A DNA stretch of 32,024 nt. Source: Acidobacteriota bacterium. GTDB taxonomy: Bacteria; Acidobacteriota; Blastocatellia; Pyrinomonadales; Pyrinomonadaceae. The stretch is taken from NCBI GenBank assembly GCA_019247455.1, contig JAFAOW010000184.1:1-32024 (forward strand). Direction: 5' to 3'. This document shows positions 14,090 to 25,103 of this stretch, in pieces (position 1 is the first letter of the stretch; every line of letters begins with the position of its first letter). The notes beneath the pieces are model-generated. The model was not told the origin of the DNA, searched no databases, and saw only the letters and a list, made by a program, of their open reading frames with translations. The position numbers were made by a program, and so were the translations under genes.

Positions 14090-15253
14090 CTATTGGAAAC
14101 ACTCGAGATACTTGATCCCCGATCCGGTATTGAACAGGACGACCTTTTCGCCGGGGGAGACGGCTCCATTCGCTATAAGCTTTCGCAACGCCGGCAGGCA
14201 GGCCGCACCTTCCGGGGCGGCAAAAATGCCTGTCGCCGCTCCAATCTGGCCAACTGCCGCTACAAGCTCGGCGTCATCAACGGCGATGGCTGTGCCACCC
14301 GAGGCACGAATGGCGTCGAGTATCAAAAAATCTCCGATCGCTTTAGGTACGCGCAGGCCCGAGGCGACTGTCGCGGCATTCTTGAATTCATCTGCGAATC
14401 GCTCCCCCTGTTTGAAGGCACGTACGATCGGTGCGCACGTGGACGACTGGACCGTCACCATGCGCGGGCGCTTCGAGCCGATCCAGCCCATCTGCTCCAT
14501 TTCGTCGAATGCCTTCCACATACCGATCAGCCCGGTGCCGCCACCCGTCGGGTAGATGATGACGTCAGGAAGCGCTCCAAACTGCTCAAACAACTCGTAG
14601 CCCATCGTCTTTTTCCCCTCGACACGATAGGGTTCCTTAAGGGTCGAAACGTCGAACCAGCCTTGAGCTTCCTTTCGCTCCGCCACGATCTTTCCGCAAT
14701 CGGTTATCAGGCCGTCGACAAGCGTTACGTTCGCGCCGGTCTGCTGGCACTCGATCACGTTCGCACGCGGAGTGTCTTGAGGCATGAAGATATGAGCCTC
14801 CATCCCGGCTTCGGCCGCGTAAGCCGCCATTGCGCTCGCTGCGTTTCCTGCCGATGGGACGGCAAGTTTCTTCACGCCGAGCTCGTTTGCCATCGTGATC
14901 GCGGCAGTCATCCCCCGTGCCTTAAAGCTCTGTGTCGGATTTTGTGCCTCGTCCTTGATGTAGAGGTCGATGTCACAACCGAGGGTCGCTGCGAGCCGCT
15001 CGGCCCTGATGAGCGGAGTCCAGCCCTCGCCAAATGAAACGATATTGTCCTGATTCTCGACCGGGAGCACCTCCAAATACCGCCAGAGCGAGGCCTCGCG
15101 GCATTTCAGCGAGTCGGGCGTCAGCGTCTCCGCCGCTTTCTTGAGGTCATAGCGAACAAGAAGCGGCTTGCCGCATTCACGACAGAGGTTTTGAAGTGTA
15201 TTCGCCTCATGCCGCAGGCCGCACACAGCGCATTCCAGATGGGTTACATTCAT
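14090..15253 (-). CDS. thrC: Threonine synthase
   Basis: This 387-residue PLP enzyme should convert O-phosphohomoserine to threonine in the cytoplasm. An N-terminal zinc-ribbon-like motif (C8-x2-C11 and C24-x2-C27) is followed by the SFGEGWTP strand. The PLP-binding lysine is K111 in [16 protein letters not shown] is the loop that holds the substrate, and the glycine-rich phosphate cradle [11 protein letters not shown] is present. Length and layout match the short bacterial/archaeal threonine synthases with an N-terminal zinc ribbon. The related diaminopropionate and threonine dehydratase families lack this combination. The gene heads the long minus-strand row, 34 nt before the permease, with no obvious Shine-Dalgarno. 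Upstream is a palindromic repeat that reaches the esterase stop. Confidence 0.93.
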
Positions 15254-15263
15254 TACGAAGATT

Positions 15264-15332
15264 TAGCCACAAAATACACAAAGGGCACAAAATGGCTCTC
15301 TTTGTTTGTGATCTTTGTGTGTTATGTGGCTA
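15264..15332. repeat. Palindromic intergenic repeat, arms of 9-nt 'CACAAA' units
   Basis: The left arm 15264-15291 and right arm 15305-15332 are imperfect inverted copies (24 of 28 positions), separated by 13 nt. The left arm begins TAGCCACAAAATACAC and the right ends TGTGTTATGTGGCTA. The left half is made of 9-nt units CACAAAATA, CACAAAGGG, CACAAAATG (15268-15294). It sits between thrC and the esterase, and its right arm supplies the esterase TAG stop (15330-15332). Similar 'CACAAA' palindromes are familiar as dispersed repeats in several environmental phyla; that comparison is from memory. Confidence 0.75.
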
Positions 15333-16022
15333 TTTTTGCAGGAGCGGCTGCAGGGCCTTGTACACATTCTCGGTCATGATCTTCTCCCCCTCGGCATTTG
15401 GATGGATCCCGTCGGCTTGATTAAGGTCTTTGTTCATCGCGATATTATCGAGGAGGAACGGCAGGAATTCGACCTTGTTCTCGCTCGCGAGATCGGGAAA
15501 TGCATTGGTGAAATCCTTCTGATACTTTTGGCCCATCGTCGGCGGGGCAAGCATCCCGCAAAGCAGGATCTTCAAATTCTTTGCTTTGGCCTTATGGATG
15601 ATCGCATCCAGATTCGCCTTCATTTTCTCGACCGGTATGCCCCGGAGCAGGTCATTCGCACCGAGCTCAAGAATGAGGACCTTCGCGTCATCCTGCTCAA
15701 GTACCCAGTCTGAGCGTTCGAGCCCACCAAGGCTTGTATCGCCCGAGACCCCTGCGTTCACCACCTCGTAATCATAGCCGTCAGCATTCAGCCGCTGCTG
15801 CAGCAGGTATGGGAAGGACTCTTTTTCTGTGAGGCCGAAACCAGCGGTGAGACTGTCGCCGAGAGCAACGATCTTCGGCCGCTTTTTGGTTACGGGCGGC
15901 GTTGCCAGCGGCTTGTCCAGTGCCGAATTATTTCCACCTGTCTTAGCTCCGCCGCATGATAGGGCGGACCCAACGAGAATGAAGGAACAAAAGATGAGCG
16001 AACTTCGAATAACAAGGTGCAT
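15330..16022 (-). CDS. tesA: GDSL/SGNH esterase-lysophospholipase, TesA-like, probable lipoprotein
   Basis: This 230-residue SGNH hydrolase starts at the ATG at 16022. An upstream in-frame ATG at 16085 would read through a palindromic repeat. All four blocks are present: GDSLTAG (Ser about 57), GVSGDT (Gly about 94), GAND (Asn about 123) and DGIHP (Asp204 and His207). The enzyme should hydrolyse thioesters, esters or lysophospholipids. The signal peptide ends GSALSCGG with Cys23. This suggests lipidation, though the -3 residue is Ala and the lipobox is weak. E. coli TesA is a soluble periplasmic protein, so anchoring would be a difference. The gene is divergent from the YbbA/YbbP-like pair, exactly as in E. 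coli. The stop codon lies inside a palindromic repeat. Confidence 0.9.
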   Translation of the reverse strand: MHLVIRSSLIFCSFILVGSALSCGGAKTGGNNSALDKPLATPPVTKKRPKIVALGDSLTAGFGLTEKESFPYLLQQRLNADGYDYEVVNAGVSGDTSLGGLERSDWVLEQDDAKVLILELGANDLLRGIPVEKMKANLDAIIHKAKAKNLKILLCGMLAPPTMGQKYQKDFTNAFPDLASENKVEFLPFLLDNIAMNKDLNQADGIHPNAEGEKIMTENVYKALQPLLQK

Positions 16023-16032
16023 GAATAGAAAT

Positions 16033-16107
16033 GTGAGATTTGAGATGTAACGCGCGCCCAAGAGAAAGAGTTTCCCATTTCTCATATCTCACTTCTCATA
16101 TCTAATA
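16033..16107. repeat. Palindromic repeat of 7-nt units between esterase and ATPase genes
   Basis: GTGAGATTTGAGATG (16033-16047) is an imperfect inverted copy of CATTTCTCATATCTCAC (16076-16092). The right side is four heptamers: TCTCATA, TCTCACT, TCTCATA and TCTAATA (16080-16107). The left side holds matching TGAGAT heptamers. It fills the divergent gap and ends 10 nt before the ATPase start. Confidence 0.65.
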
Positions 16108-16117
16108 TTGGTTCGTA

Positions 16118-16795
16118 ATGATACGACTTTCAAATGTCACAAAGACCGTTCGCTCCGGCGACGAGGACCTGACGATCCTCGACGACGTCTCGATCGATAT
16201 TCCAGACGGACAGTTCGTCGCGATCACGGGGGCGTCGGGTAGTGGTAAATCGACTCTCCTTGGGCTCGTCGCGGGGCTCGACGCACCTTCCTCCGGGAGC
16301 ATAATGATCGATGAGGACGAGATCACTGCGCTCGGCGAAGACGCGCTTGCCGCAATTCGCAGCCGCAAGATCGGATTCATTTTTCAATCCTTTCACCTGA
16401 TCCCGAGCCTTACGGCTTTTGAGAATATACTGATCCCCATGGAGATCCTGGGGCTGAGCGACGTTGTAACTCGTGCAAATGCGTTGCTCGACAACGTTGA
16501 TCTCACGAATCGCGGCCATCACTATCCTGCTGAGCTTTCGGGAGGTGAGCAGCAGCGTGTCGCGATCGCCCGCGCGTTCTCGAATTCGCCAAAGATCCTG
16601 CTTGCGGACGAGCCGACCGGCAATCTCGATACAAAGAACGGCCACCACATCTTCAATTTGATGAAGGACCTTCACAACCGCCATAACGTCACGCTCGTGC
16701 TCGTAACGCACGATGCCGACCTCGCTGGCCAAGCTCAACGGCGGATCGTCCTCGCCGACGGCCGTGTTGTGAGTGATGAGGTGAATGCGAATTAG
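16118..16795 (+). CDS. ybbA: ABC transporter ATPase, YbbA/LolD-like
   Basis: This is a 225-residue cytoplasmic ATPase of the MacB/LolD group. It has Walker [10 protein letters not shown] (38-46), Q-loop Gln90, signature LSGGEQQR (140-147), Walker B LLADEP (161-166) and H-loop His198. The TGNLD sequence after Walker B is typical of LolD, MacB, FtsE and YbbA proteins. It should power the two-module permease encoded 97 nt downstream on the same strand. With the divergent TesA-like esterase, this matches the tesA-ybbA-ybbP neighbourhood of E. coli. No clear Shine-Dalgarno precedes the ATG, and a palindromic repeat lies in the divergent gap. Assignment to YbbA rather than LolD rests on the neighbours. 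Confidence 0.92.
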
Positions 16796-16802
16796 AAAAG
16801 AT

Positions 16803-16883
16803 TCAAACAGGATGTACGGGATTCGCAGGATACGGGCGCGGCATTTCGCTCTTTATCATGTCCATTCGATCTATCCTGTTTGA
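16803..16883. repeat. Palindromic repeat of 9-nt 'CAGGAT' units between ATPase and permease genes
   Basis: TCAAACAGGAT (16803-16813) and its exact inverted copy ATCCTGTTTGA (16873-16883) flank the gap. The left arm continues as 9-nt units, ACAGGAT-gt, ACGGGAT-tc and GCAGGAT (16807-16831). Beyond the perfect 11 bp, the arms match at about 20 of 29 positions. The permease ATG follows 9 nt after the right arm. CAGGAT-type palindromes are familiar as dispersed repeats in other environmental genomes (from memory). Confidence 0.72.
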
Positions 16884-16892
16884 TTTCCACCT

Positions 16893-19421
16893 ATGAGATT
16901 CATTCTGAATCTGACAAAGCGCGAGATACGCTCTTCCTGGCGGCGTCTGCTGTTCTTTTTTTTATGCATCGCGTTGGGAGTGGGTTCGATCGTCTTTTTG
17001 CGGTCGCTGATCTCTAACGTCACGAAAGTTGTCGGCAACGACGCTCGCGCCCTGATGACCGCTGATGTCGATATCTCTTCAACAAATGATTTCTCACCGA
17101 CCGATGTCGCCAAGATCGAGAATGTGGTCGCTAAATTTCCCATCGTCGAGGCTCGCGATGAGGTTATTTCGACCGCGTCGATGGCGCGGCCCGTCGACCC
17201 GTCGAACCAAACTATTAAATTCGTCGAGCTGAAAGGCATCGATCCGCCCTTTCCGCTGGTCGGCAGCTTTACGCTCGCTGAGGGCCGACCATTCGATTAT
17301 AGCTTGCTCTCTGATCACGGCGCCGCCGTTGCGAGGATCGTCCTGGAAGACCTCCACGTAAATGTCGGCGACAAGCTGAAGATCGGCGAGGCCGAATTCA
17401 CGATCCGGGCCGTGTTTGACGAGGAACCGGGCGGGTCAAGCGGCTTCAGGCTCGGAGCACGCGTCTTCATTGAAAAAAAGGCTTTTGATGATGCGGGTCT
17501 TACTCGGACGACCAGCCGTGTTCGCCGCCGCATTCTGTACCGCACGAGTGACAACCCGACAGCGTTCGTAAAGGCGCTTCGCGACGAGCTAAAGGGCACG
17601 ACGATCCAGGTCAACTCATACCGGGAGCAGCAGGAGAATATGGATGAGCAGTTCGTCCGCACTGAGAATTATCTTTCGCTCACGGGTCTGCTTATTCTCG
17701 TTCTCGGCGGCGTCGGCGTTTGGAATGTCGCGCGGGCCTTTATCGAACAAAAAAGAAAAACCGTCGCGGTCCTCAAATGCCTGGGAGCCGCCGGCGGACG
17801 CATCATCACGGTCTACCTACTGCAAATGATGACCCTGGGTCTGATCGGCAGCGTTTTCGGCGTGCTGCTGGCGCAGTTCGGGATGTGGCTGGCACGATGG
17901 GAATATGCCGACGCATTACCCGCGAAAATGAGATACTCCGTCGCCCTTCAGGCATCGTGGCAGGGCATCGTCTTGGGCGTACTGATCTCACTGCTTTTTT
18001 CCGCTCTGCCCCTGATGCAGATCCGCACCATCAAGCCGAAGCTGCTGCTTCGTGACGAGAATAACGTCAGTATCAATCGCCTCGACTGGACCAAATGGCT
18101 CATCGGCGTCATCTCCATCTGCATTCTGCTCGCCCTCGCGGTCTGGCAGGCAGGCTCGGTGACCGTCGGCGCATTCTTCCTCGGCGGCTTGGCGGCGACC
18201 GGGCTTGTTCTTTTTCTGTCCTCCTGGCTGCTAACCTGGATGCTGAAGAAAGCCAAGCGCAGCAGTTCATTCTCTTTCCGACAAGCGGTCAACTCACTCT
18301 ACCGTCCCGGAAATCAAACGCGGATCATTTTGCTCGCTGTTGGGCTCGGCGCTTTCGTCGTTATCGCTGTGCAGACGATGCAGACAAATCTGGTTCGTGA
18401 ATTCGATTTCACAAAAAATCGCCGTTTGCCGAGCTTGGTCTTCGTTGATATCGGTATGACGCAGATCGATGGCGTAGTCAAAATGATCGAGCAAGGTACA
18501 GGCGAAACGCCCGAATCCGTTCCGACCGTACGCGGGCGCATCGCCGCCGTGAATGGTGTTGGATTCGATTATGACAACAAAGAGATCAGGCAAAATTCGG
18601 GCCAGATCGGGCGCGAATTCGCACTCACCTACCGGCCGAATCTCGATACAAATGAAACTGTAGTGGCCGGCCAGTGGTGGCCGACGGGCGATCCTGCGGA
18701 CGAGCTACAGGTCTCGGTCGAGGAAGGCATGTCCAAGACTCTTGGGGTTACGGCGGGCGACTCGATAACGTTCGACATTTCGGGGCGCAAGATCACTGCC
18801 CGAGTTTTGAGTATTCGCAAGATCGATGTCAAAAATGCCAGGACTGCGTTCGTGTTTGTCTTTCGGCCGGGGACGCTCGAAAAGGCTCCCCAGAGCTTCG
18901 CCGCGACAGTACTGAATCACGTGCCCGCGACCGACCGCCAGCGGCTGCAGCGTGATATCCTCGAACAGTATCCGAATGTCCAGATCTTTGACGTCGCCGA
19001 TATCGTCGAAACGATCAACAGGCTCGTCAGGAACTTCGTGATCGCGGTGTCGTTTGTAGGGAGCTTTGTCCTGCTGAGCGGGATTCTTATCCTGATAGGC
19101 TCAGTTGCCCTCACAAAAACGCAGCGTATCTATGAGAACGCCATCTTAAAAACGCTGGGCGCGAACCGCCGCACTCTTGCCACCATTCTGTTGACCGAAT
19201 ACGGCCTCCTAGGGCTTATCGCCGGCCTCATCGCGACTAGCTTCGCCGTTACTCTTTCGTACCTCGTGTGCCGTTATCTGATGAATATTGACTGGGAATT
19301 CAATTGGATGATCTCACTGCTCGGAGTGTGCATGACCACAGCCCTTGTGACGATCGTCGGCGCGGCTGCGAGTTTCGACGTGCTCTTCAGGAAGCCTCTC
19401 GCAACGCTCCGGTCGCAGTAG
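16893..19421 (+). CDS. ybbP: ABC transporter permease with two FtsX domains, YbbP-like
   Basis: This 842-residue inner-membrane protein starts at MRFILNLTKREIRSSWRR, with the first TM near 20-40. A periplasmic domain follows (about 45-260). A first FtsX module (about 265-390) carries the coupling motif EQKRKTVAVLKCLGAAG. A middle TM pair (about 405-455) is followed by a second N-terminal-type helix (about 480-500, GNQTRIILLAVGLGAFVVIAV) and a second periplasmic domain (about 510-700). The final FtsX module (about 710-842) contains TQRIYENAILKTLGANR. Ten or so TM helices and this double layout fit YbbP, whose E. coli form is about 800 residues. With the ATPase and esterase it should form a machine extracting hydrophobic molecules; the substrate is not established. 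Its stop abuts the next convergent stop with no spacer. Confidence 0.9.
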   Translation: MRFILNLTKREIRSSWRRLLFFFLCIALGVGSIVFLRSLISNVTKVVGNDARALMTADVDISSTNDFSPTDVAKIENVVAKFPIVEARDEVISTASMARPVDPSNQTIKFVELKGIDPPFPLVGSFTLAEGRPFDYSLLSDHGAAVARIVLEDLHVNVGDKLKIGEAEFTIRAVFDEEPGGSSGFRLGARVFIEKKAFDDAGLTRTTSRVRRRILYRTSDNPTAFVKALRDELKGTTIQVNSYREQQENMDEQFVRTENYLSLTGLLILVLGGVGVWNVARAFIEQKRKTVAVLKCLGAAGGRIITVYLLQMMTLGLIGSVFGVLLAQFGMWLARWEYADALPAKMRYSVALQASWQGIVLGVLISLLFSALPLMQIRTIKPKLLLRDENNVSINRLDWTKWLIGVISICILLALAVWQAGSVTVGAFFLGGLAATGLVLFLSSWLLTWMLKKAKRSSSFSFRQAVNSLYRPGNQTRIILLAVGLGAFVVIAVQTMQTNLVREFDFTKNRRLPSLVFVDIGMTQIDGVVKMIEQGTGETPESVPTVRGRIAAVNGVGFDYDNKEIRQNSGQIGREFALTYRPNLDTNETVVAGQWWPTGDPADELQVSVEEGMSKTLGVTAGDSITFDISGRKITARVLSIRKIDVKNARTAFVFVFRPGTLEKAPQSFAATVLNHVPATDRQRLQRDILEQYPNVQIFDVADIVETINRLVRNFVIAVSFVGSFVLLSGILILIGSVALTKTQRIYENAILKTLGANRRTLATILLTEYGLLGLIAGLIATSFAVTLSYLVCRYLMNIDWEFNWMISLLGVCMTTALVTIVGAAASFDVLFRKPLATLRSQ

Positions 19422-21488: not shown

Positions 21489-21565
21489 CGGGGCGTAGCA
21501 CAGCCTGGTAGTGCGCACGGTTTGGGACCGTGAGGCCGCAAGTTCGAATCTTGCCGCCCCGACCA
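21489..21565 (+). tRNA. tRNA-Pro (anticodon TGG)
   Basis: This is a 77-nt tRNA with encoded CCA. The acceptor stem CGGGGCG (21489-21495) pairs with CGCCCCG (21555-21561). It has a D-loop with CAGCCTGGTAG, an anticodon stem CACGG/CCGTG with loop TTTGGGA and so anticodon TGG, and a T-arm with GTTCGAATC. The C1-G72 pair and G37 after TGG are standard for bacterial tRNA-Pro. The discriminator is A and the 3' end GACCA. It reads CCA codons and probably other CCN codons. A seven-base inverted repeat (GACCAGC 21561-21567 and GCTGGTC 21580-21586) lets the trailer pair over the 3' end before processing. No terminator is visible between it and the HU gene, so the two may be cotranscribed. Confidence 0.97.
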
Positions 21566-25064: not shown

Positions 25065-25103
25065 AATGACGGGTTTACTCTTCCGCGAAACCCGTCATTT
25101 TTT
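25065..25103 (+). terminator. Terminator after the small secreted protein gene
   Basis: The 12-bp stem AATGACGGGTTT/AAACCCGTCATT (25065-25076 and 25088-25099) has an 11-nt loop and runs into a six-T tract (25098-25103). It is strong and well placed, 24 nt after the stop. Confidence 0.9.

Follow-up and report, generated by a model that had tools for sequence, protein, structure and literature searches.

A gene-less hairpin between two ABC transporter genes of an acidobacterium is apparently a member of a widespread kind of DNA hairpin

In the draft genome of an Acidobacteriota bacterium (3.28 Mb in 310 contigs), the stop codon of an ABC transporter ATPase gene and the start codon of a permease gene are separated by a gap of 97 nt (16796–16892) that is filled by a single short hairpin, called F3 here, and the question arises of what this hairpin is and how it came to lie there. 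The DNA that we analysed, hereafter the window, is the whole of contig C251 with a length of 32,024 nt, and its features bearing on the question are collected in Table 1. As the initial annotation had it, F3 lies between the ATPase and permease genes, has perfect 11-nt arms and carries 9-nt CAGGAT units in its left arm. Both outer arms, TCAAACAGGAT (16803–16813) and ATCCTGTTTGA (16873–16883), were re-found, the left hexamer cores stand 9 nt apart at 16808, 16817 (CGGGAT) and 16826, and the right cores are ATCATG (16855), ATTCGA (16864) and ATCCTG (16873). No ORF remnant was identified in the loop, the ends of the 81-nt, 9-nt-unit structure bear no GTAG or CGTC tag, and on the + strand it is followed by TTTCCACCTATG, with the T run of an intrinsic terminator absent. 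It is argued below that F3 belongs, as a form without a gene, to a widespread and apparently undescribed kind of DNA hairpin.

Table 1. Hairpins of the window and the genes that adjoin them.
Feature	Position	Strand	Basis
PALP (pyridoxal-phosphate enzyme) gene adjoining F1	14093..15253	-	
F1, hairpin without ORF, CACAAAnnn 9-nt units (15268, 15277, 15286), PALP-GDSL gap	15264..15332	.	
GDSL lipase/acylhydrolase gene flanked by F1 and F2	15333..16022	-	
F2, hairpin without ORF, 7-nt units (TGAGANN), GDSL-ATPase gap	16028..16105 (approx.)	.	
ABC transporter ATPase gene preceding F3	16118..16795	+	PF00005
F3, hairpin without ORF, CAGGATnnn 9-nt units	16803..16883	.	sequence, fold, arm match to L350
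ABC permease gene (MacB_PCD/FtsX) following F3	16893..19421	+	

Arm length alone does not lift F3 above what chance would give in 32 kb. Five shuffles of the window (order-1 Markov) yielded 2–5 inverted repeats each with a score of at least 11, the window itself has 5, and F3 is the weakest of them. Its fold is moderately unusual (z −2.75, with 4 of 200 shuffles as good), the corresponding z values of F1 and F2 being −6.33 and −2.21. F3 stands above chance because of its family membership, the left arm being identical at 27 of 33 positions to the reverse complement of the right arm of L350, an element of the same genome, where the maximum in 30 shuffles was 21. The left arm of L350 gave a best match of 18/31 in the window, not above shuffles.

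F1 and F2 fill the two gaps preceding that of F3, and the window scan gave no further unit-array hairpin, so that three consecutive gaps are indeed occupied with none elsewhere in the window. The units of F2 are TGAGATT and TGAGATG, with TGAGAAG, TGAGATA and TGAGAAA on the other strand, and its right arm agrees in 30 of 33 positions, as against at most 21 in shuffles, with the right arm of L314, a complete element on contig C143 of the same genome, with a second F2-type hairpin at C143:127-171, less than 1 kb from L314. For F1 the link is looser: it resembles the arms of a congener's GxxExxY element (L343) and a hairpin of G035, and has an arm score of 19.2, with an inverted repeat scoring at least 13 occurring in one of the five shuffles. 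The three had been taken for unrelated families, a view that we do not keep because each of them is a fold-back structure whose arms are inverted unit arrays; they have a common anatomy and a single kind of full-length form. The occurrence of three hairpins within 1.6 kb had also been read as telling. Such a density is unusual, but it is weak evidence: under a strict filter for periodic hairpins, 6 were found in 174,545 bases of the same genome, about 1 per 29 kb, and the window holds 2 by the same filter, which misses F3 itself, so that the rate is a lower bound and we therefore attach no P value to the clustering. Elsewhere in the window there are a perfect 12-nt inverted repeat without unit structure, AATGACGGGTTT/AAACCCGTCATT, at 25065–25099 between two + strand ORFs, and a tRNA gene at 21489–21562, the sole Rfam match.

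In the complete forms, one small gene is enclosed by two arrays of a short degenerate unit that are inverted relative to each other, and the whole occupies a short intergenic stretch, also within operons. They fall into two classes, one with a GxxExxY gene (PF13366/TIGR04256) and units of 8 or 9 nt, and the other with a gene for an IVP/S23 four-helix bundle (PF05635/TIGR02436) and units of mostly 7 nt. L350, on contig C238, is a complete CAGGAT element, in which a GxxExxY ORF lies between TTTAACAGGATAGACAGGATAAAGCAGGATG and ATTATCCTGCCGATCCTGTACATCCTGTTTAAA; its start codon is inside the third unit of the left arm, and the right arm contains the protein tail with the stop codon, so that the 9-nt unit equals three codons. 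L314 is a complete IVP element (TIGR02436, PF05635) with arms of the F2 type. When 119 listed loci were scanned for facing CAGGAT arrays over long distances, 2 long-loop pairs were found as against 135 short ones, and only one of the 2, L205, with near-perfect arms, encloses an ORF, which is again GxxExxY. A profile search found no known transposase in the complete forms.

The association of the two gene families with such arms was measured by Smith-Waterman comparison of the 200 nt upstream with the reverse complement of the 200 nt downstream, at a threshold score of 16, the relatives' loci being the top-scoring matches, 30 per family, rather than a random sample. Inverted arms were present at 25 of 34 GxxExxY loci, 19 of 39 IVP loci (39 of the 40 entered, flanks shorter than 60 nt being dropped and L317-L319 of the window's own genome left out), 1 of 30 Y1_Tnp loci and none of 21 ATPase control loci (of 30 fetched). 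Direct flank matches at the same score numbered 7, 1, 5 and 0, respectively. The strongest unit period was 9 or 8 nt at the GxxExxY loci and 7 nt at the IVP loci. In addition, 16 of 44 matched plasmid records from other phyla were inspected, comprising all 8 with GxxExxY and 8 of the 36 with IVP; inverted arms above shuffles were found in 8 of 8 for IVP, one of them marginal, and clearly in 3 of 8 for GxxExxY (Sphingomonas, Bacteroides finegoldii and Bernardetia). Strong direct flank matches, instead of or beside inverted ones, are present in three records (L423, L430, L431), two of GxxExxY and one of IVP.

Comparison of orthologous gaps shows such elements in several states at one place. In the sufD-sufS gap of 30 congeners, including the window's own genome, classification by eye gave 7 full elements (G003, G007, G009, G014, G019, G021, G026), 2 with the ORF interior deleted and the ends kept (G017 and G002, as aligned with G003), 3 hairpins (G004, G010, G035), 4 one-arm remnants (G022, G024, G027, which is weak, and G033) and 14 without an element, the window's own genome having there neither an element nor a gap. 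Since full, deleted, hairpin-only, one-arm and empty states are all present at this site, hairpins can arise by gene loss, and interior loss can leave hairpins with ORF remnants. In five congeners (L394, L396, L397, L402 and L403) the same gap holds instead a small ORF that looks ribbon-helix-helix-like by eye.

At the ATPase-permease gap of F3, with contents likewise assigned by eye in 36 genomes, the gap is at most 6 nt in 20, of which 15 have a 4-nt overlap. Hairpins of four different families are present in G000, G008, G013 and G032, one arm in G023, an IVP/S23 gene with inverted unit arms in the congeners G001, G007 and G011, and another insert in G012, G015 and G036, with 5 further gaps beside all these classes. 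The latter inserts (L253, L256, L276) are of another kind, 0.7–1.2 kb long with a small ORF that is presumably DUF4160-like. G018 in its PALP-GDSL gap, and G006 and G011 in their GDSL-ATPase gaps, also have hairpins of other families. A shared insertion preference, one of the two possibilities raised at the outset by the initial annotation, gains support, as each of these three gaps is occupied in congeners by hairpins of other families or by full elements, and full elements between operon neighbours occur in other phyla as well. In the close pair G032 and G004, a single insertion, that of a CRCRGAT hairpin, distinguishes G032 from G004. Target-site duplications were not found; none is readable at G032/G004, and junctions between species are strongly diverged. 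Within the PALP gene, G004 has a heptamer array AAAATCC (L245:7822-7863) and G032 a palindromic GC-rich stretch (L272), and as these replace each other inside the gene, the repeats also enter coding sequence.

The hairpins are spread far beyond these congeners. The strict CAGGAT pattern gave 0–208 matches per genome and is present in 119 of 195 genomes, the window's own included, with 0 in most for the reversed control; in the window's own genome there are 2 matches against 1 in the control. Two-unit CAGGAT hairpins, in at least 119 stretches, occur in Methanoperedens and ANME-2 archaea, Chloroflexota, Planctomycetota, Bacteroidota, Pseudomonadota and others. Among viral contigs they occur in 11 stretches, none with a GxxExxY or IVP ORF by profile. 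The F2 pattern gave 5 matches at 4 places in the window's own genome against 0 in the control, and the F1 pattern is barely enriched (214 against 160 in the reversed control over 98 genomes, and 1 against 1 in the window's own genome). Of the 195 relatives, PF13366 matches are present in 135 and PF05635 matches in 153, with 4 and 13, respectively, in the window's own genome. G069 has 208 CAGGAT hairpins and a single PF13366 gene, that one with CACAGAG arms, and G040, G067 and G109 have 90, 38 and 37 hairpins with no PF13366 match; because these genomes carry the hairpins without a matching PF13366 gene, they count against the need for a resident cognate gene. The loops within one genome look unrelated by eye, and the hairpins are therefore not plain copies of one master. 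Spacer identity between the arms is 0.51 over 316 nt, which is suggestive of a core more conserved than the spacer in a comparison that the search pattern biases. On a Deltaproteobacteria MAG contig (L095:77-592), five near-identical CAGGAT hairpins form a regular 112-nt tandem array.

Moreover, the arms and the enclosed protein appear to be linked in descent. Among 53 GxxExxY sequences, D is invariant (53/53), E is present in 52 with one D, K in 53, and both Q and Y of a QxxxY motif in all 53. The GxxExxY protein of the full forms thus has the D ... (E/D)xK pattern of PD-(D/E)XK enzymes and is predicted from its sequence to be nuclease-like; the QxxxY motif is linked to RecB/Cas4-like nucleases. 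A tree was made from 53 of the 54 distinct GxxExxY ORFs (one short row was left out), using the first 105 residues of the matched domain, a limit chosen to exclude arm-encoded tails. On it the arm classes (CRCRGAG 27, CAGGAT 8, CRCRGAT 5, CRCRAAG 5, other 8) require 13 changes, as against 24.3 in shuffles, with none of 200 shuffles as low, and 6 changes without the 8 rows of the class other. As judged from these sequences, arm type follows the GxxExxY protein tree, with no clustering of the CRCRAAG class by itself. An AlphaFold model of GxxExxY for two sequences has a pLDDT of 50.7, too low for interpretation, and in a PDB sequence search the sole match, ketol-acid reductoisomerase at E 0.0013, was taken as chance. 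The L314 protein has a weak Avd match (E 1.9e-4). In the accessible parts of the literature, IVP is described as uncharacterised and associated with rRNA insertions (PMC11270868), and is tied to cas loci (PMC3936711) and to the Avd protein of DGRs (PMC10053308). The name GxxExxY occurs in two papers, in a passage of one of them in an unrelated context.

Based on these data, we consider it probable that F3, F1 and F2 are gene-less fold-back elements of the GxxExxY/IVP kind, which spread through recognition of the array by the encoded protein and later lost the gene. F3 would either descend from an element resembling L350, which has CAGGAT arms and a GxxExxY gene and is in the same genome, or have been moved in trans by such an element. 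The encoded protein would recognise its own family's unit array, which may be extruded as a hairpin or cruciform, and would help to cut and spread it. The gene would then be lost, while the hairpin may persist because it is harmless between a stop and a start codon. The movement, the action of the protein on its own arms, and gene loss in F3 rather than mobilisation in trans are what we infer here; no transposition event was seen, and at sufD-sufS one ancestral insertion followed by decay would give much of the same picture.

Several other explanations have to be weighed against this one. It is unlikely that the hairpins are immobile products of local replication slippage and template switching, with the enclosed genes accidental or captured. 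Such an origin would fit with units that are tandem and degenerate, with the differing spacers and with the seemingly unrelated loops, and the repeat hairpins of the Nostoc trnL intron, according to the accessible text of PMC4476775, owe most of their changes to something other than random mutation; however, archaea and many bacterial phyla have these core units in common, the same two gene families are enclosed repeatedly with arm type tracking the GxxExxY tree, and gene-bearing inserts are found at orthologous gaps where the ancestral state was probably an overlap. We give less credence still to RNA structures maintained by the host in the ABC operon as a terminator, attenuator or mRNA stabiliser. 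The folds are stable and F3 lies between co-directional genes, whose overlap in 15 of the 36 genomes suggests translational coupling, but 20 of the 36 orthologous gaps leave at most 6 nt, the one gap holds different sequences in different species, and no T-tract follows F3, although F3 may have a secondary action on the transcript.

REP/REPIN-like repeats, for which a Y1 tyrosine transposase (RAYT or TIRYT) provides mobility, share with the present hairpins that they are small intergenic palindromes, with non-autonomous copies of variable number beside a rarer gene-bearing form, and Y1 genes flanked by terminal inverted repeats are described in the available part of PMC3733652. The window's own genome has 6 Y1_Tnp matches, and a linked RAYT-like transposase had been suggested as a thing to look for. 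The link is largely refuted by the single armed locus among 30 Y1 loci and by G069, which has no Y1_Tnp match beside its 208 hairpins, and G136 with 129 hairpins has one weak match; also, the arms here are arrays of 7–9-nt tandem units with no GTAG/CGTC tag seen, unlike the tagged REP of 20–40 nt, and this origin is very improbable. A chance inverted repeat is an even poorer candidate: several inverted repeats with an arm score of 11 are to be expected in 32 kb, but the match to the own-genome element arm contradicts chance, as do the 9-nt core spacing, the exact fit to the gap and the fold.

The fold-back elements that we prefer as the explanation can be compared with other known systems. The intervening sequences (IVS) of 23S rRNA with an S23p/IVP ORF, for example in Coxiella burnetii, are sporadic, have been called selfish and have been proposed to be mobile, and as in the present elements their terminal inverted repeats form one long hairpin with the PF05635 protein in the loop, in the accessible part of PMC4990558. 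L314, the full-length relative of F2, has such an ORF inside a fold-back hairpin, while L350, the relative of F3, carries GxxExxY. By contrast, IVS lie within rRNA genes and are removed from the RNA by RNase III, F1-F3 lie between protein genes, and the present kind differs from IVS in its arms of mostly 7-nt unit arrays, its ORF-less copies and its second class with a nuclease-like gene. MITEs are non-autonomous relics with inverted repeats, left by internal deletion of a longer element. G017 and G002 at sufD-sufS are internal-deletion relics with the same ends, and F3 shares an arm with L350; unlike MITEs, the present elements have unit-array arms, no target-site duplication seen and no known transposase.

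Two heptamer systems also come close. The P6b element of the Nostoc trnL intron has, in the accessible text of PMC4476775, hairpins of heptameric repeats (TDNGATT or NNTGAGT), of which the whole motif was replaced repeatedly; its stem consists, as here, of degenerate 7-nt units, and the F2 unit TGAGATT fits TDNGATT, but it is inside a group I intron and a gene in its loop is not reported in that text. The TAACTGA heptamers of Beggiatoaceae, as given in the part of PMC4679880 at hand, are likewise tandem 7-nt units between genes, occur sporadically in distant phyla and have an unexplained origin, but nearly all of them are direct repeats in one orientation. No description of the GxxExxY/IVP unit-array hairpin kind was found in the open-access literature searched, subscription papers and preprints being outside that scope, and a term search of a stem-loop survey (PMC2267715) gave no match.

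We tentatively entertain, at somewhat below even likelihood, the wider proposal of a mobile fold-back superfamily of bacteria and archaea without a classical transposase, in which a GxxExxY nuclease or an Avd-like IVP would recognise its own 9- or 7-nt arrays, a large part of the hairpins and heptamer/nonamer repeats between the genes of many genomes would be gene-less copies, and the IVS of 23S rRNA would be one branch. Two widespread uncharacterised families, annotated as 'GxxExxY protein' and 'four helix bundle/S23 protein', gain context and a testable substrate, namely their own unit-array arms. The proposal would offer one origin for the intergenic hairpin-forming heptamer and nonamer repeats that recur in distant phyla, and would make the spread of the 23S rRNA intervening sequences, an old question, directly testable. 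It would also explain why such genes interrupt operons, as at fabD/fabG, cas10/cmr3 and cas6/cas4.

Finally, we note that on cyanobacterial plasmids unit-armed IVP genes lie between cas genes (L431, L433 and L435, at cas6/cas4 and cas10/cmr3), and for this reason the reported association of IVP with cas may be one of insertion and not of function.
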